Assembly (NCBI GenBank): GCA_001412365.1 | Contig: LKUE01000058.1 | Coordinates: 1-9,425 of the forward strand | DNA: 9,425 nucleotides | From: Desulfuromonas sp. SDB | Lineage (GTDB): Bacteria > SDB-A | Direction of reading: 5' to 3' | In this document: in pieces, positions 848 to 9,391 of the stretch | How the letters are laid out: each line of letters starts with the position of its first letter | How positions within the stretch are numbered: position 1 is the first letter of the stretch | Position numbers and translations under genes: made by a program | The notes under the pieces: generated by a model | The model's database searches: none | The model's input: only the letters and a program-made list of their open reading frames with translations | Told to the model about the DNA's origin: nothing

Positions 848-1789
848 TTACTTTGATAGCAAACCTTGGATTATCATTTCCACCGCTTCATCTTCTGAAA
901 TTCCCCGGGACATTAAAGTTTCCAATTGTTTGTTGTCCACACTCCCAATTGCCGCTTCATGGGTGACATGAGCTTTGGGATGAGCCACTTCCACAATGGG
1001 GACCGCATTAGCCACTCCTTGATCCTGGACTATTTCTTTACAATCCACATGACCCCGGGCATAGGGTGCGCTTGCTACAATTTTATTATTTATCTGTGCT
1101 CTTGCTCTGTCTCTGACCGCAATCTTTGAAGTCAATACCGCGGTGGAATGTTCTCCATTGAGATAAGCCTGCTCATTGATTTTTATCACATCATCCTGCA
1201 AGCCGCTGATTCGTGCATTCATGTCAATAACAGAGTATTCCAATCCTTCTGCAGCATAATCAACATCTATGATGCCCACTCTGCCTTTGAGAAGAACAAA
1301 TTCTGTGGAAAACCGTGAGTTTTTGCCTACCACTATCTTTGCTTTGGGAATTACCTCTACTCCTCCGCTGTCACTATGTACATGTTTTTCCTGATAACTG
1401 TAAACCGCATTTTCTCCAATTAAAATTTCCGCATTCATGATGTGCTTAACTTTAATTGCCCGGGGAAATACGCAATGAGCCAGTATAGCAATGGAGGAAT
1501 TATCTCCAATGTTCACCTTCATCTCAATTCTCTGAGTGCCCCTCTCCGGCAGCATCCCGAAACAAAGATGAACCGGTTTATTAATTTTATGCTGGGATTC
1601 CAGGTCGATTTCTATATTTAAACCCTGTTCAATTTGCTCAGTTTTAATATTTAAACCGGGCACTCCGTGCATCCCTAAAACCTTGTCATGATTAACTATC
1701 AGATGAGCTATTTCAGGATCAGTCAATACATCTGCATCTGAATCTGTTTGCTGGTATAAATCCCTGGCAGTGGCGTAGTCATTATTCAT
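848..1789 (-). CDS. sufB: SufB/SufD-family Fe-S scaffold, minimal (SmsB-like)
   Basis: A 313-residue SufB/D-type protein, the scaffold partner of the SufC ATPase for assembling Fe-S clusters in the cytoplasm. The middle is a run of short beta strands (about residues 70-240), as expected for the SufBD beta-helix. The diagnostic C-terminal block reads GHVDCKEIVQDQG (246-258), then THEAAIGSVD (276-285), then SRGISEDEA (294-302). C250 and E278 are spaced like the catalytic Cys/Glu of E. coli SufB, so this copy looks SufB-like and functional. It is much shorter than E. coli SufB (about 495 residues) and fits the short form found in archaea and anaerobes (two-gene SUF-like minimal system). The ATG at 1789 is chosen because GGGAG lies 6 nt upstream. 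It overlaps the sufC stop by 8 nt (ATGAATAA), implying translational coupling. No SufS, SufE or SufU is present in the window. Confidence 0.92.
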   Translation of the reverse strand: MNNDYATARDLYQQTDSDADVLTDPEIAHLIVNHDKVLGMHGVPGLNIKTEQIEQGLNIEIDLESQHKINKPVHLCFGMLPERGTQRIEMKVNIGDNSSIAILAHCVFPRAIKVKHIMNAEILIGENAVYSYQEKHVHSDSGGVEVIPKAKIVVGKNSRFSTEFVLLKGRVGIIDVDYAAEGLEYSVIDMNARISGLQDDVIKINEQAYLNGEHSTAVLTSKIAVRDRARAQINNKIVASAPYARGHVDCKEIVQDQGVANAVPIVEVAHPKAHVTHEAAIGSVDNKQLETLMSRGISEDEAVEMIIQGLLSK

Positions 1790-2570
1790 CTTTCTCTCCC
1801 TTATCAACCTGGAAAATATCACTATTTTGTTTATCTATTGACTGAATTGTGCCATCAGGCTTGTTTTTGTGATCACAGGGTTCGCAAACTGATTTAAAAT
1901 ACTGGGAAATTTTTTCAACTGAACCTTTATCCTGAAGCTGTCCTCTGCAAATTAAAAAGGCATGATCAGCTTGATCAAGTACCGCCAAACTATGGGTAAT
2001 CAGAATAATTGTAGTTCCCCGTTTCTTTAAAATCTTAATTACTTCGAAAATCTTTTCAATGGAAGCAATATCAATACCCGAATCAGGTTCGTCCATCATC
2101 GCAATTACCGGTTCCATAACCATTATCGAAGCCAATTCTATCTTCTTTCTCTCCCCCCCGCTGAGGGTTTTATCTACCGACCGGAATAAATAACTTGCAG
2201 GTTCCAGTCCTACCGTATTTAATGCATTTTCAGCTATTTCCTTGTTCTTCTGTTTAGCGGAGGCCAAAATAAAATCACTTACGGAGAGACCCTCAAATCT
2301 AGCCGGTTCCTGCCAGGAGAGAGTTAATCCAAATTTTGCTCTTTCATCAATACTCACTTGTTTTAATGAATTTCCCTTGAACAAAATATCACCATCGAAA
2401 TTATGATAACCGTTTAAGCCCATGATGGTTGAGGCTAAACTGGATTTTCCTGCTCCGTTTGGCCCCACCACTGCATGTATGTATCCTTCCCAGAATTCTA
2501 AACTTAAATTATCCAATATTTTTTTCCCATCCAGGGTTAAACTCAGATTTTTTACTTCTAATACAGACAT
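1782..2570 (-). CDS. sufC: SufC-family Fe-S assembly ATPase (SmsC-like)
   Basis: A 262-residue ABC-type ATPase that powers Fe-S assembly on the SufB-like scaffold. No membrane segment is present. Visible motifs are Walker A GPNGAGKSS (36-44), Q-loop glutamine 87 in SWQEPARFEG (typical of SufC), signature LSGGERKK (136-143), Walker B VIAMMDEPDSGID (155-167) and H-loop histidine 193. Residues up to about 224 match a normal SufC. The remaining 38 or so form a polar tail that starts with CEPCDH (C229, C232) and is longer than the usual SufC end. Start at ATG 2570 with GGAG 6 nt upstream is preferred to the TTG at 2573. It is directly coupled to the SufB-like gene. An 82-nt gap with a hairpin separates it from ferritin. 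Confidence 0.95.
   Translation of the reverse strand: MSVLEVKNLSLTLDGKKILDNLSLEFWEGYIHAVVGPNGAGKSSLASTIMGLNGYHNFDGDILFKGNSLKQVSIDERAKFGLTLSWQEPARFEGLSVSDFILASAKQKNKEIAENALNTVGLEPASYLFRSVDKTLSGGERKKIELASIMVMEPVIAMMDEPDSGIDIASIEKIFEVIKILKKRGTTIILITHSLAVLDQADHAFLICRGQLQDKGSVEKISQYFKSVCEPCDHKNKPDGTIQSIDKQNSDIFQVDKGEKDE
1796..1800 (-). promoter_or_regulatory. Ribosome binding site for the SufB-like gene, inside sufC
   Basis: GGGAG on the minus strand, 6 nt before the ATG at 1789 and inside the last codons of sufC. It supports the 313-residue form over the GTG at 1822. Confidence 0.65.
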
Positions 2571-2599
2571 CAATCACTCCCTGGTAACGATTATAAATG

Positions 2600-2620
2600 G
2601 CTGGAGCATTAAGCCCCAGC
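2600..2620 (-). other. mRNA hairpin between ferritin and sufC
   Basis: On the minus-strand transcript, GCUGGGGC pairs with GCUCCAGC (7 Watson-Crick pairs plus one G-U) around a UUAAU loop. It lies in the only long gap (82 nt) of the operon, 30 nt ahead of the sufC start. The following bases (CATTTATAATC) are AT-rich but not a true T-run. It may act as a partial terminator, a processing site or an mRNA stabiliser separating the storage/detoxification genes from the Fe-S assembly genes. Confidence 0.5.
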
Positions 2621-5365: not shown

Positions 5366-5379
5366 TTAGTCATGACTAA
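5366..5379. promoter_or_regulatory. Palindromic operator for the DtxR-family repressor
   Basis: TTAGTCATGACTAA is a perfect 14-bp palindrome. It directly abuts the -10 box of the promoter that drives the regulator and its operon, and would cover the start point. The TTAG...CTAA ends resemble boxes bound by DtxR/IdeR/TroR-type repressors. A further TTAGG half-site (minus strand, 5360-5356) lies just downstream. Binding by the adjacent regulator is inferred from position and symmetry. Confidence 0.75.
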
Positions 5380-5407
5380 AATATAATCTGTTTAGCTTTG
5401 CTGTCAA
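5380..5407 (-). promoter_or_regulatory. Sigma70-like promoter of the dtxR-suf operon
   Basis: On the minus strand, a perfect -35 TTGACA (5407-5402) is followed by a 16-base spacer and TATATT (5385-5380), five of six matches to TATAAT. The -35 box overlaps the TGA stop of the DUF364 gene. Predicted transcription starts around 5373, inside the palindrome, leaving a leader of about 30 nt before the GTG at 5342. Confidence 0.72.
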
Positions 5408-6150
5408 GTATTTTTTAGCCGTCCCACCTTTTCCGCAAATTTTACAAAATCTTTAGTCCCTCCTCCCTTGCCAATAATCTCCAGCACCCTCCGGTCTTCT
5501 GGTTTAAACTTCATTCCAAATAAACCATCAATCCGGTTCAGTTTAAACATCTGATCATCCATAACAGTGGAGGGGCCCAGGATATAAATGTGAGCAGAAT
5601 CATTGGATTTGCTTAAAATTTCTTTAAAAGTCAGATTGGTAATGGAAGTGGCAGTTAAAATAACCGCAGAAGCACGATGTAAATCATTTTGCAGGGATTT
5701 AAAGTAATAGGGGGTGATGTTTTGAAATTTAAGATCGTAAACATTAACCTGAATTTGCTTATTAATCAATCTATTCAATACCGGTTTAAACAATCCCACC
5801 ATAACCACCAAAGAACCCTTGGGGAAATCAACAATCTCTGCAATATCATTTTTCAGCGGAAGAGAATTTTTATAATTCACCGCTGCATTCAGGTAAGCTT
5901 GAAACCAAACCCGGTGGGATAATTTAACTAAATCTAAGTTATTACTGTCAGGCGGAGATGATTTTAATTCACCGCAATTCAGATTAGCACAAACACCGAT
6001 ATTCCCATTTTCAAGCATCACTGCAGAATAGCGGATTCCCCTGGACCAGGATTTAATTTTCAGGGGATGGTAACTGTACTTACCGTAGTAAAATGCTAAC
6101 AAATCATCAAGGTTATCCTCTATACAAATCTTTCCCGGTGATTTATTCAT
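5404..6150 (-). CDS. DUF4213/DUF364 putative heavy-metal chelation protein
   Basis: A 248-residue soluble protein of the DUF364 family. The N-terminal part (about 10-95, DUF4213-like) contains SRGIRYSAVMLENGNIGVC. The C-terminal Rossmann-like part shows the family phrases VVMVGLFKPVL (115-125), ILTATSITNLTFKEILS (164-180), YILGPSTVMDDQMF (189-202) and IIGKGGGTKDF (225-235). Family members have been proposed to bind or chelate metals or a small ligand and often sit near metal or molybdenum/siderophore-like genes, but no reaction is established. The ATG at 6150 is chosen. An upstream TTG frame (6225) would add 25 AT-rich residues with no ribosome site. The local site (GGGG, 2 nt from ATG) is poor, so the start is less certain. 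Its stop overlaps the -35 of the downstream metalloregulator promoter, so it can also read through into the operon. Confidence 0.85.
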   Translation of the reverse strand: MNKSPGKICIEDNLDDLLAFYYGKYSYHPLKIKSWSRGIRYSAVMLENGNIGVCANLNCGELKSSPPDSNNLDLVKLSHRVWFQAYLNAAVNYKNSLPLKNDIAEIVDFPKGSLVVMVGLFKPVLNRLINKQIQVNVYDLKFQNITPYYFKSLQNDLHRASAVILTATSITNLTFKEILSKSNDSAHIYILGPSTVMDDQMFKLNRIDGLFGMKFKPEDRRVLEIIGKGGGTKDFVKFAEKVGRLKNT

Positions 6151-6332: not shown

Positions 6333-7838
6333 ATGTCCTTAAAATGTTCGAAATGCGGTACTGAAAACACTGAAGATTCTGTATTTTGTAAAAAATGCGG
6401 AGAAAAACTCAGCCCTCCCCCTCCCCCTCCTCCTTCTGAAAAAACCACTCATCCCGATAATAATTCGAAATCATCTCCTCCCCCCTCATCTACTTTTAAA
6501 CAAAAAGACATTGCTAAAAATTCAACTTCGGAGGATGTTTTTTCTCTTTACCGGAAAAAGCACAGCCAGCCGGTTGAACATAAATTTAAATCATCTGAGC
6601 ATAAAAATGATGAGGACACTAAATTTACCAAATTCACCAAACCGGAAAAACCCGGTCAATATAAATCAACATCAAAGCAAAATAAATCAAATCAGCAAAA
6701 ACAGATTTCTTCATCATCATCAATTAAGTCCTCTTCTTCCCAACCAAATCAGGATCTTCCCTATGATTTAAAAGTCCCTGATTATCTGGAAAACAAACAA
6801 AATCCAGCGAGGAATATTTTATTTATCGGATCATTTATAGTTTTCCTGCTAATAATATTTGCTGCAATCATATTTGTTCCCCGGATTAAAGATAAATTCT
6901 TTCCATCTTCCCCCGACCATTCAACAGATTATGAACCCCCTGGATTGGTGCTGGTTCCCGGAGGGATCTACCGTATAGGAAGCTATAAAGCTGTATTCAA
7001 TGACGAAGTGCCGAATTTTAAAGTGGAATTGGACAGTTTCTATATGAAGGAGACTCCAGTTACAAATTATGAATTCAGCAAATTTATCAATGAAACCGGA
7101 TATTTAACTTATGCTGAACGGGACAGCAGTATTGGTTTTTGGACTGATTCAACCGGATATCAGCATGACGGAGCCAACTGGAGACATCCCCGGGGGATGG
7201 ATGGACCGGATGCTGTTTTTGATCTTCCTCTGCATCCAGTAGTGCAGGTTACCTGGTACGATGCAGCAATTTTCTGCAACTGGCTTTCAGAGAAAGAAAA
7301 TCTTGAACTCCAGTACGACACCATAACTTGGGAATGTAAATTTACCAACGGTTACCGGCTGCCCACTGAATTTGAATGGGAAGCAGCAGCTCAGGGGCTG
7401 CGAAGAAGCACTTATCCCTGGGGAGAAGATTCACCTAAAGCCACTGCTGACAGCGCTCAAGCCAATCATGCCGGATACCTCAGGGTGGGGGAGTTTATTG
7501 AAGATCAACAGGCAATGAACTTCTCCAGCATTATGGAACATATGAGATTAGATGGTTATCAATTTACTTCACCGGTGGATGCATTCCCCCCCAATGATTT
7601 GGGATTATATGATATGGCTGGGAATGTTTGGGAGTGGTGCCAAAATTATTACGACCTTTATCCTCCGGAAACCTATACTAATCCCCGGGGATTTGAGGAT
7701 GGCGAATACAAGGCAATGCGGGGAGGTTCTTATGGGCATGATTACAGATATTTACGAAGATCTGCCCGGGGTAAAAATGTTCCTTACACTGCAGTGGAGT
7801 TAATCGGATTCAGAGTGATGAGATTAAAATCGGAATAA
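6333..7838 (+). CDS. Membrane-anchored FGE/SUMF1-fold protein with zinc ribbon
   Basis: A 501-residue three-part protein. Residues 1-25 form a zinc ribbon (C5, C8, C19, C22; CSKCG...CKKCG). A proline run (28-34) and a long Ser/Lys/Gln/Pro-rich, probably disordered linker (35-150) follow. One membrane helix spans 161-182. Residues about 204-500 form an FGE-sulfatase (SUMF1) domain with the family phrases LVLVPGGIYRIGS, PVVQVTWYDAAIFCNWLS, NGYRLPTEFEWEAAAQG, YPWGE, LGLYDMAGNVWEWC, MRGGSYGHDYRYLRRSARG and IGFRVMR. The two catalytic cysteines that true formylglycine-generating enzymes carry just after GGS are absent (GHDYRYL here), so sulfatase activation is unlikely. It may be a binding, scaffold or other SUMF1-like oxidoreductase relative. 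Zinc ribbon probably cytoplasmic with the SUMF1 domain outside, but charges flank the helix on both sides, so topology is uncertain. Confidence 0.9.
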   Translation: MSLKCSKCGTENTEDSVFCKKCGEKLSPPPPPPPSEKTTHPDNNSKSSPPPSSTFKQKDIAKNSTSEDVFSLYRKKHSQPVEHKFKSSEHKNDEDTKFTKFTKPEKPGQYKSTSKQNKSNQQKQISSSSSIKSSSSQPNQDLPYDLKVPDYLENKQNPARNILFIGSFIVFLLIIFAAIIFVPRIKDKFFPSSPDHSTDYEPPGLVLVPGGIYRIGSYKAVFNDEVPNFKVELDSFYMKETPVTNYEFSKFINETGYLTYAERDSSIGFWTDSTGYQHDGANWRHPRGMDGPDAVFDLPLHPVVQVTWYDAAIFCNWLSEKENLELQYDTITWECKFTNGYRLPTEFEWEAAAQGLRRSTYPWGEDSPKATADSAQANHAGYLRVGEFIEDQQAMNFSSIMEHMRLDGYQFTSPVDAFPPNDLGLYDMAGNVWEWCQNYYDLYPPETYTNPRGFEDGEYKAMRGGSYGHDYRYLRRSARGKNVPYTAVELIGFRVMRLKSE

Positions 7839-7879: not shown

Positions 7880-9391
7880 CTAGTAGAAGATTATTTTATT
7901 AACCTGTTTCATCCTGTGTCCCCGGACAGTTTCCATCTGCACCGAGCAAAAGTAAATACCAGAATTGTACAGTTTGTCTTGTAATTTAAAACTATACTGA
8001 CCTGTATTTAAATTAGCACAACAGATATTTTCCACTAAACTGCCGTTAATTCGAAACATTTTCAATTCCACCCATCCTGGTTCAGTTAATTCAACTATAA
8101 ACTGGTAGGTGTGATTTTGGGGTATACATATAAAATTAATTTTTACCAAGTCCTGCTGGTTATTTACCGGAAATTCCTCTGTGCCGGTAACAGTAAATAA
8201 ATCGGAAAGATCAAAAACATAGGGTTCTCTTAGATATGCTGCGGAATCTACAGTAGCCGTTGCCACCATCAGAGTACCGGTGGAAGGGATGTACTGCATC
8301 ATCTGATTGTTGTTTGAATACCCTCCTCCTGCTGCCATAATTGACCAGCTTCTAGACCTGGTTATATCGGAGGAACTGTTCAAGGAATCCACAATTTCAT
8401 TATAACGCACACAGTAAACAGGATTTACCAACTTGCGGTGATGGTTTGTAGCTACCAGGTTTTCTCCGGGAACTACGGTATTATCCAGTACATCCCGGGT
8501 AACCAATCCATGCTCGTTATCACATTCCACAATGAGGGCATGGCTGTCCAAACAAACCTTGGACACCAAATGGATTACTGAAGAACCAAATTGATATTTA
8601 TCCCGGATTGCCTGAACTACATCAATGGAATTACACTCTCCGTCCTGATTGTAGTCATTCATTTCCAAGCCGTTTCTAACCGACAAAAGAACCGGATGAA
8701 AAGTATGCATATTAGTATGGTTTTGAGGATTACCTACGTTTTTAAATGCCCCTACTCCGCTTTGATTCATTGCGGAAAGAGCCGCGATAAGACCGGGATA
8801 AGTTACTGAAACCCAGTTCTGTTCATCACTCTCCTCAGGAATACTAACTAAAATCAGATGATTTTCCACTAAGGCAAAATGTGTCTGCCAATCCATAAGT
8901 CGGGTTATAACCACATCTCCGTTTAATCCGGGATCATTCACTGTTGAATTTCCCCAGCTGGACATGCTGGAACATTTGTTTATTTCTCTGATCTCATCAA
9001 TGGCGTTGACCATTAAAATATCCATACTGTCAACATTGCGCTGCAAGGTGCTGTCGTAAATGCTGATCCCTGCATCTTCCATCCCCCTGATCATTGCTCC
9101 TGCTTCCTGCAAATATTTATCTTCTACACTGAAATTTGAAATAAAATAATTCCGGACAATTTGATAATTGGCGGGATTATTGTAAAATACAGATTTCAAT
9201 ACATATTCTTGGAAAATAAGCTTAATTTTATCTCCTAACAGGTAGCCATGACTGTATCCCCTCTGGTAGTGATTACCCCATACTTTTAAAATCATGGTGT
9301 TATCACTAACTCTAATTGTATCTCCGGTTACAGTTTGACCGATTAAACTGCCGCTCCAACATAACCAAATCACCATAATCTGAAAGATCAT
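7880..9391 (-). CDS. Secreted C45-type Ntn-hydrolase with C-terminal sorting-like domain
   Basis: A 503-residue protein. Residues 1-18 are a hydrophobic signal-peptide-like segment, though with no basic n-region. The body matches C45/acyl-transferase-type N-terminal-nucleophile hydrolases: RGYSHGYLLGDKI (44-56), probable nucleophile C140 in INKCSSMSSWGN (autocleavage expected before it), VVITRLMDWQ (160-169), PGLIAALSAMNQSGVGAF (199-216), ALIVECDNEHG (285-295) and ATNHH (314-318). These enzymes cleave or transfer amide bonds; the substrate is unknown. A dockerin-like calcium loop DYNQDGECNSID (246-257) lies within the enzyme region. The final 95 or so residues form a beta-rich domain ending NSGIYFCSVQ...VNKIIFY, like type IX secretion sorting tails, but the usual NP motif is degenerate. 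GGAGGT 5 nt before the ATG fixes the start. It converges on the FGE-like gene with a 41-nt gap. Confidence 0.82.
   Translation of the reverse strand: MIFQIMVIWLCWSGSLIGQTVTGDTIRVSDNTMILKVWGNHYQRGYSHGYLLGDKIKLIFQEYVLKSVFYNNPANYQIVRNYFISNFSVEDKYLQEAGAMIRGMEDAGISIYDSTLQRNVDSMDILMVNAIDEIREINKCSSMSSWGNSTVNDPGLNGDVVITRLMDWQTHFALVENHLILVSIPEESDEQNWVSVTYPGLIAALSAMNQSGVGAFKNVGNPQNHTNMHTFHPVLLSVRNGLEMNDYNQDGECNSIDVVQAIRDKYQFGSSVIHLVSKVCLDSHALIVECDNEHGLVTRDVLDNTVVPGENLVATNHHRKLVNPVYCVRYNEIVDSLNSSSDITRSRSWSIMAAGGGYSNNNQMMQYIPSTGTLMVATATVDSAAYLREPYVFDLSDLFTVTGTEEFPVNNQQDLVKINFICIPQNHTYQFIVELTEPGWVELKMFRINGSLVENICCANLNTGQYSFKLQDKLYNSGIYFCSVQMETVRGHRMKQVNKIIFY

Follow-up and report, generated by a model that had tools for sequence, protein, structure and literature searches.

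The window, that is, the whole 9,425-nt stretch of DNA analysed, carries on its minus strand a gene coding for a DtxR-family regulator, followed by genes for a rubredoxin, a flavodiiron protein, a small CPF_0552-family protein, a ferritin, and SufC- and SufB-like proteins (Table 1). This gene content supports an earlier note, made from the letters of the DNA, which had predicted an iron/oxygen gene set downstream of the regulator. From dtxR to the ferritin gene the gaps are only 9–18 nt, and 79 nt with a GC-rich hairpin separate the ferritin gene from sufC. The hairpin could attenuate the suf part of the operon, and it might terminate part of the transcripts or have a stabilising effect. Homologues of the flavodiiron protein occur at 50–58% identity in many genomes. 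The best NCBIfam hits of the suf genes (848–2573) are below the cut-offs; the set consists of SufC and one short SufB/D-like protein (324 aa), and resembles a minimal two-gene system.

On the other side of the DUF364 gene, a divergent gene (6333–7838) codes for a proline-rich protein with a zinc ribbon and an FGE-sulfatase (formylglycine-generating-like) domain, which is probably membrane-anchored. Each of the three sister genomes has a homologue, at 47–49% identity, of the gene at 7880–9391; the contig therefore belongs to this genome, and contamination of the assembly was rejected.

Table 1. Features of the promoter, the dtxR operon and the adjacent DUF364 gene, in positions of the window.
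Feature	Position	Strand	Remarks
-35 box TTGACA	5402..5407	-	contains the TGA stop of the DUF364 gene
-10 box TATATT	5380..5385	-	16-nt spacer from the -35 box
Perfect palindrome TTAGTCATGACTAA	5366..5379	.	candidate operator over the expected transcription start; class conserved upstream of related dtxR genes
DtxR-family regulator, 182 aa	4794..5342	-	PF01325 and PF02742 over cut-off; model resembles MntR
Rubredoxin, 52 aa	4622..4780	-	PF00301; NF045768 over cut-off
Flavodiiron protein, 389 aa	3434..4603	-	beta-lactamase-like diiron domain and flavodoxin-like part
CPF_0552-family small protein, 86 aa	3157..3417	-	related to TM1266; NF052672 over cut-off
Ferritin, 164 aa	2653..3147	-	PF00210
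GC-rich hairpin, ferritin-sufC gap	2600..2620	-	z = -2.38; no proper U-tract
SufC-like Fe-S assembly ATPase	1782..2573	-	TIGR01978 best hit, below cut-off
SufB/SufD-like scaffold protein	848..1822	-	PF01458; overlaps sufC
DUF364 gene (putative heavy-metal chelation)	5404..6150	-	directly upstream of dtxR; start ATG at 6150, ORF open to 6225

A promoter-adjacent palindrome and its operator class

Read along the minus strand (5407–5366), the promoter TTGACA-N16-TATATT runs directly into the perfect palindrome TTAGTCATGACTAA, and 23 nt further on lies the GTG start codon of the DtxR-family gene (5342). This promoter is the top promoter-like match of the window, with 11 of 12 positions matched, and the TGA stop of the DUF364 gene (5406–5404) falls within its -35 box. 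Both the abutting arrangement and the reuse of the stop codon had been described in the earlier note and were confirmed, and the proposed placement of the palindrome over the transcription start, ahead of the regulator gene, is supported for the predicted start. The statement that no other such palindrome exists in the window was wrong, as a second perfect 14-mer palindrome, AATCCCCGGGGATT, is present at 7680–7693. It sits within the coding sequence of the FGE-sulfatase-domain gene and is probably due to chance. The composition of the DNA predicts about 0.8 perfect 14-mer palindromes per whole window and about 0.014 per 62-bp gap; hence, by composition alone, the palindrome is unremarkable in 9.4 kb but not in the 62-bp gap. 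Shuffling of the upstream region gave some perfect 14-mer palindrome in 23 of 2000 cases. Folding gave no RNA hairpin at the site (z = -0.48), so this reading was rejected and the site is regarded as a DNA-type dyad. The 3.14-Mb genome contains a single exact copy of TTAGTCATGACTAA.

Eighty relatives of the DtxR-family protein were gathered with their flanks, giving 77 usable upstream regions of 150 bp. TTAG-N6-CTAA was found in 20 of these regions, compared with a mean of 0.185 and a maximum of 2 in shuffled sequences, and at 7 of 8 matched arm bases the number rose to 41, against 5.2 expected. The family consensus, taken as the majority base at each position, is TTAGGCATGCCTAA, and at least 11 of its 14 positions were matched in 25 upstream regions (0.49 in shuffles). 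The window palindrome matches it at 12 of 14 positions, a value reached in 5 of 5000 shuffles, and its TTAG/CTAA arms are exact and lie no more than about 120 nt ahead of the operon of the regulator. The two departures, at positions 5 and 10, are mirror images that leave the dyad intact. In most relatives with a recognisable site and promoter, the start of the palindrome follows that of the -10 box by 5–8 nt; the offset of 6 in the window lies inside this cluster, directly after the -10 box. A second, smaller group has the palindrome between the -35 and -10 boxes. Genomes of the sister genus carry GTTAG-N6-CTAAC ahead of dtxR-feoAB genes; in an unrelated genome with a feoAB-dtxR operon, TTAGTTATGACTAA is located in the promoter at the start of feoA. 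An exact TTAG-N6-CTAA is absent as a recognisable site in more than half of the relatives.

Conservation ahead of related dtxR genes, which the earlier note had named as the test of its reading, was thus found, and the position is shared as well. Since this footprint in relatives far exceeds the 0.185 expected, chance is a most unlikely origin of TTAGTCATGACTAA; very probably a repressor does bind there, and the class to which the site belongs is common to many distant bacteria. Autoregulation by the adjacent DtxR-family protein, as the earlier note had suggested, is well supported as a prediction, because the operator class is conserved upstream of related dtxR genes and usually stands right after the -10 box. 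The class also offers a handle for regulon prediction in many uncultured anaerobes.

The arms recall those of the actinobacterial regulators DtxR and IdeR (TTAGG...CCTAA), which belong to the same family and bind sites such as TTAGGATAGCTTTACCTAA (PMC524172). Those sites are 19 bp long (TTAGG-N9-CCTAA), whereas the window dyad has 14 bp with an inner CATG and does not fit the classical box.

Two further arrangements were seen in one of the other genomes. At G016:C25:65490-65503 (L180), the perfect palindrome TTAGTTATAACTAA stands just ahead of genes for MinD-type ferredoxin-ATPases, with a divergent glutamine synthetase-like gene on the other side, and it is possibly a further target of that genome's DtxR. 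On contig C5 of the same genome (L176, 4827-5193), feoAB-dtxR diverges from a ferritin-flavodiiron-desulfoferrodoxin cluster, and the operator lies at the feoA side of the shared gap.

A DtxR-family protein with a largely replaced metal site

The regulator consists of a winged-helix domain (PF01325), a dimerisation/metal-binding domain (PF02742), both above the Pfam cut-offs, and a Cys-rich C-terminus (C128, C129, C144, C154, C157, C161). MntR was its nearest solved relative in both sequence and fold searches (fold match E 1.8e-8), and the predicted model had a pLDDT of 85.9. By descent and fold, the protein is therefore a member of the DtxR/MntR family; a role as a metalloregulator is putative. 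In Bacillus subtilis MntR, the metal ligands are Asp8, Glu11, His77, Glu99, Glu102, and His103 (PMC6860424). The corresponding columns in the 80 relatives hold D (79), E (80), H (80), C (80), E (80), and H (80), while the window protein has K13, F16, H82, E105, E108, and Y109. Four of the six primary ligands of the relatives are thus replaced (D by K13, E by F16, C by E105, and H by Y109) and H82 and E108 are kept, so that the protein agrees with the feoAB-linked relatives in two of six columns and retains three of six ligands in MntR terms. In 24 further genomes, C and H were found in all 24, and D and E in 21 each. One of the two patterns used to retrieve the relatives spans residues 13 and 16; a retrieval bias at these positions is possible but slight, because the pattern permitted the residues of the window protein. 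Neither pattern includes positions 105 and 109, so such a bias does not apply to them. As four of the six primary ligands are replaced, the ordinary Fe(II)/Mn(II)-dependent repression assumed in the earlier note is not supported.

The other parts of the protein follow the family. The C-terminal cysteines C129, C144, C154, and C157 are shared with 78, 65, 78, and 67 of the 80 relatives, and the HTH residues T45, A47, and R29 with 77, 77, and 78. The ORF is undisrupted. In the tree, the branch of the protein has a length of 0.84, long in comparison with the median of 0.20, and its placement is weakly supported (0.37).

Compared with MntR of B. subtilis and B. halodurans, the window protein has the same fold (the best structural match), a two-domain length without SH3 and a palindromic operator, but Asp8, Glu11, and His103 are replaced by Lys, Phe, and Tyr, the Cys-rich C-terminus is extra, and the target genes differ. 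It has neither the Met10/Cys102/Glu105/His106 site nor the SH3 domain of actinobacterial DtxR/IdeR. The closest likeness is to the feoAB-linked Cys-terminal DtxR regulators of Desulfobacterota, Planctomycetota, Acidobacteria, and others (L043–L122), which have the same domain architecture, cysteine motif, operator class, and -10-adjacent placement. These regulators keep the D/E/H/C/E/H metal site, of which the window protein has lost four ligands.

A second DtxR paralogue in the genome (L035) keeps all ligands. It stands alone (L035/L146, G000:C349:6569-6931), and there is no clear TTAG-N6-CTAA palindrome upstream of it. A DtxR homologue in the sister genus (L037, G002:C100:27236-27607) retains a single one of the six ligands (L, R, L, K, E, F) and is flanked by an outer-membrane-protein gene similar to that next to L035. 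Loss of ligands may have happened more than once.

Gene context and scope of the regulon

In the loci inspected, feoA and feoB follow most dtxR genes of the relatives, in contrast to the rubredoxin, flavodiiron, CPF_0552, ferritin, and suf genes of the window. Among 129 related loci, no rubredoxin, flavodiiron, ferritin, or SufB gene was found beside dtxR, and the only genes shared with the window operon were generic ABC ATPases; the dtxR-rubredoxin-flavodiiron-ferritin-suf order was found in one genome. The sister genus has the reverse arrangement, with dtxR next to feoAB and a PerR/Fur-type gene, again in first place, next to rubrerythrin and flavodiiron genes (L142–L144). The sister-genus dtxR genes code for no Cys-rich C-terminus, and, judged by sequence, the window dtxR is for this reason a different regulator in the slot and not a simple exchange of one orthologue. 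In other genomes (L147, L150), a Fur-type regulator gene is followed consecutively by rubredoxin, flavodiiron, and ferritin genes. By this comparison, the window seems to carry the same oxygen/iron module, with the place of the regulator taken by a DtxR-type protein and not by one of the Fur family. We found no paper linking DtxR with flavodiiron protein, rubredoxin, and ferritin in a literature search, and a 2004 delta-proteobacterial reconstruction described Fur and PerR sites, with DtxR not mentioned. The DUF364 gene also directly precedes dtxR in a distant genome in which feoAB is kept (L205), which hints that DUF364-dtxR is an older pair.

Genome scans gave 13 sites for TTAGTCATGACTAA with up to two mismatches, 6 for TTAGTNNNNACTAA, and 45 for TTAGN6CTAA, compared with 34, 23, and 139 for the respective reversed-pattern controls. 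As all three patterns were rarer than their controls, a genome-wide regulon was rejected. The few sites outside ORFs lie near genes without an evident iron role, and the single one-mismatch copy of TTAGTCATGACTAA extends across the start of a methionine aminopeptidase gene. The earlier note had proposed a scan for further sites ahead of feoAB, ferritin, or suf genes, and the pattern searches gave no convincing second site there in this genome. Its feoAB genes are on another contig, directly behind a Fur gene. With no other convincing site in the genome, the regulon looks local, and the regulator seems to control just its own operon, in which ferritin and suf genes are already included. The only feoB detected in the genome follows feoA and the Fur gene (L145, G000:C337, 3694-6139), and TTGATATTGAGTATCAA, by eye a Fur-box-like dyad, lies just upstream of fur.

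Proposed mode of regulation and competing explanations

The explanation that we favour, and consider probable, is that the palindrome is the operator of the adjacent DtxR-family protein, which would autorepress the operon and respond to a trigger other than classical loss of Fe(II) or Mn(II). A dimer of the protein on TTAGTCATGACTAA would cover the edge of the -10 box and the transcription start and block RNA polymerase; repression is the natural reading of this geometry, because the dyad starts at the -10 box. The protein would repress dtxR itself and the rubredoxin, flavodiiron, CPF_0552, and ferritin genes, probably together with sufC-sufB, all on a predicted common transcript. Since most of the primary metal ligands are gone and the C-terminal cysteines remain, the protein has probably ceased to sense Fe(II)/Mn(II) in the classical way, and release would probably not be set off by these ions leaving the classical site. 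Both the ligand losses and the kind of genes in the operon suggest another signal. The likeliest would be that, on exposure to oxygen, the cysteines become oxidised or lose a bound metal or Fe-S cluster. It is conceivable, and we advance it tentatively, that a DtxR-family repressor has abandoned its classical metal site, turned into an oxygen/redox or Fe-S sensor by means of the C-terminal cysteine cluster, and come to autoregulate an operon for oxygen scavenging, iron storage, and Fe-S assembly in place of the usual iron-import targets.

Several observations weigh against the favoured explanation: the operon is seen in one genome, its regulator is on a long branch, the operator departs from the consensus at two positions, the exact motif goes unrecognised in most relatives, and L035, with its ligands kept, could bind instead. 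Ligand loss could also simply weaken binding, as in the four-ligand alanine mutant of P. gingivalis MntR, which gave no robust DNA complexes (PMC4805248). Metal sensing is assumed for DtxR-family proteins and is carried over by homology from one annotation to the next. Here a conserved operator occurs together with a protein that has lost most of its sensing site and has other target genes, suggesting that the two are separable in a testable way.

Among the alternatives, an ordinary metal-dependent repressor, activated by Fe(II) or Mn(II) and silencing the operon when metal is plentiful, is unlikely. Its fold, operator, and genomic context are typical of the family, SUF genes are plausible targets of iron repression, and H82 and E108 are kept, with E105 equivalent to the ligand Glu99 of MntR; these three residues would have to suffice together with alternative ligands. 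Against this, K13, F16, and Y109 remove three MntR ligands, Lys13 brings a positive charge into the site, and abundant iron would switch off ferritin, which is backwards. One of the lost ligands is among three residues for which strict conservation across the IdeR/MntR family has been reported (PMC6860424).

A fair rival, although an unlikely one, is a metal-independent, constitutive autorepressor that would keep the operon at a set level, with Lys13 in the cation's stead and the cysteines in a structural role, for example with zinc. The charge of K13 lies beside the retained acidic ligands, P. gingivalis MntR binds DNA both in its apo form and as the C108E variant (PMC4805248), and feoAB-linked relatives with an intact metal site conserve the cysteines to the same degree. 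The salt bridge from Lys13 to E105/E108 is hypothetical, and it would be unusual for an oxygen-defence operon to lack inducible control.

That the palindrome serves another regulator (the paralogue L035, a protein of the Fur/PerR type, or some unrelated factor) while the adjacent protein degenerates is very unlikely: the intact ligands of L035, the long branch of the window regulator, and the Fur/PerR genes heading similar rubredoxin-flavodiiron-ferritin clusters would fit this view, but the TTAG-N6-CTAA class tracks dtxR genes with conserved adjacency, and the HTH residues and reading frame are maintained. A chance palindrome in an AT-rich promoter, for which the composition-based expectation for the window and the second palindrome in a gene could be cited, is extremely improbable in view of the rarity of a 12/14 family-motif match in shuffles and the recurrence of the -10-adjacent placement in relatives.
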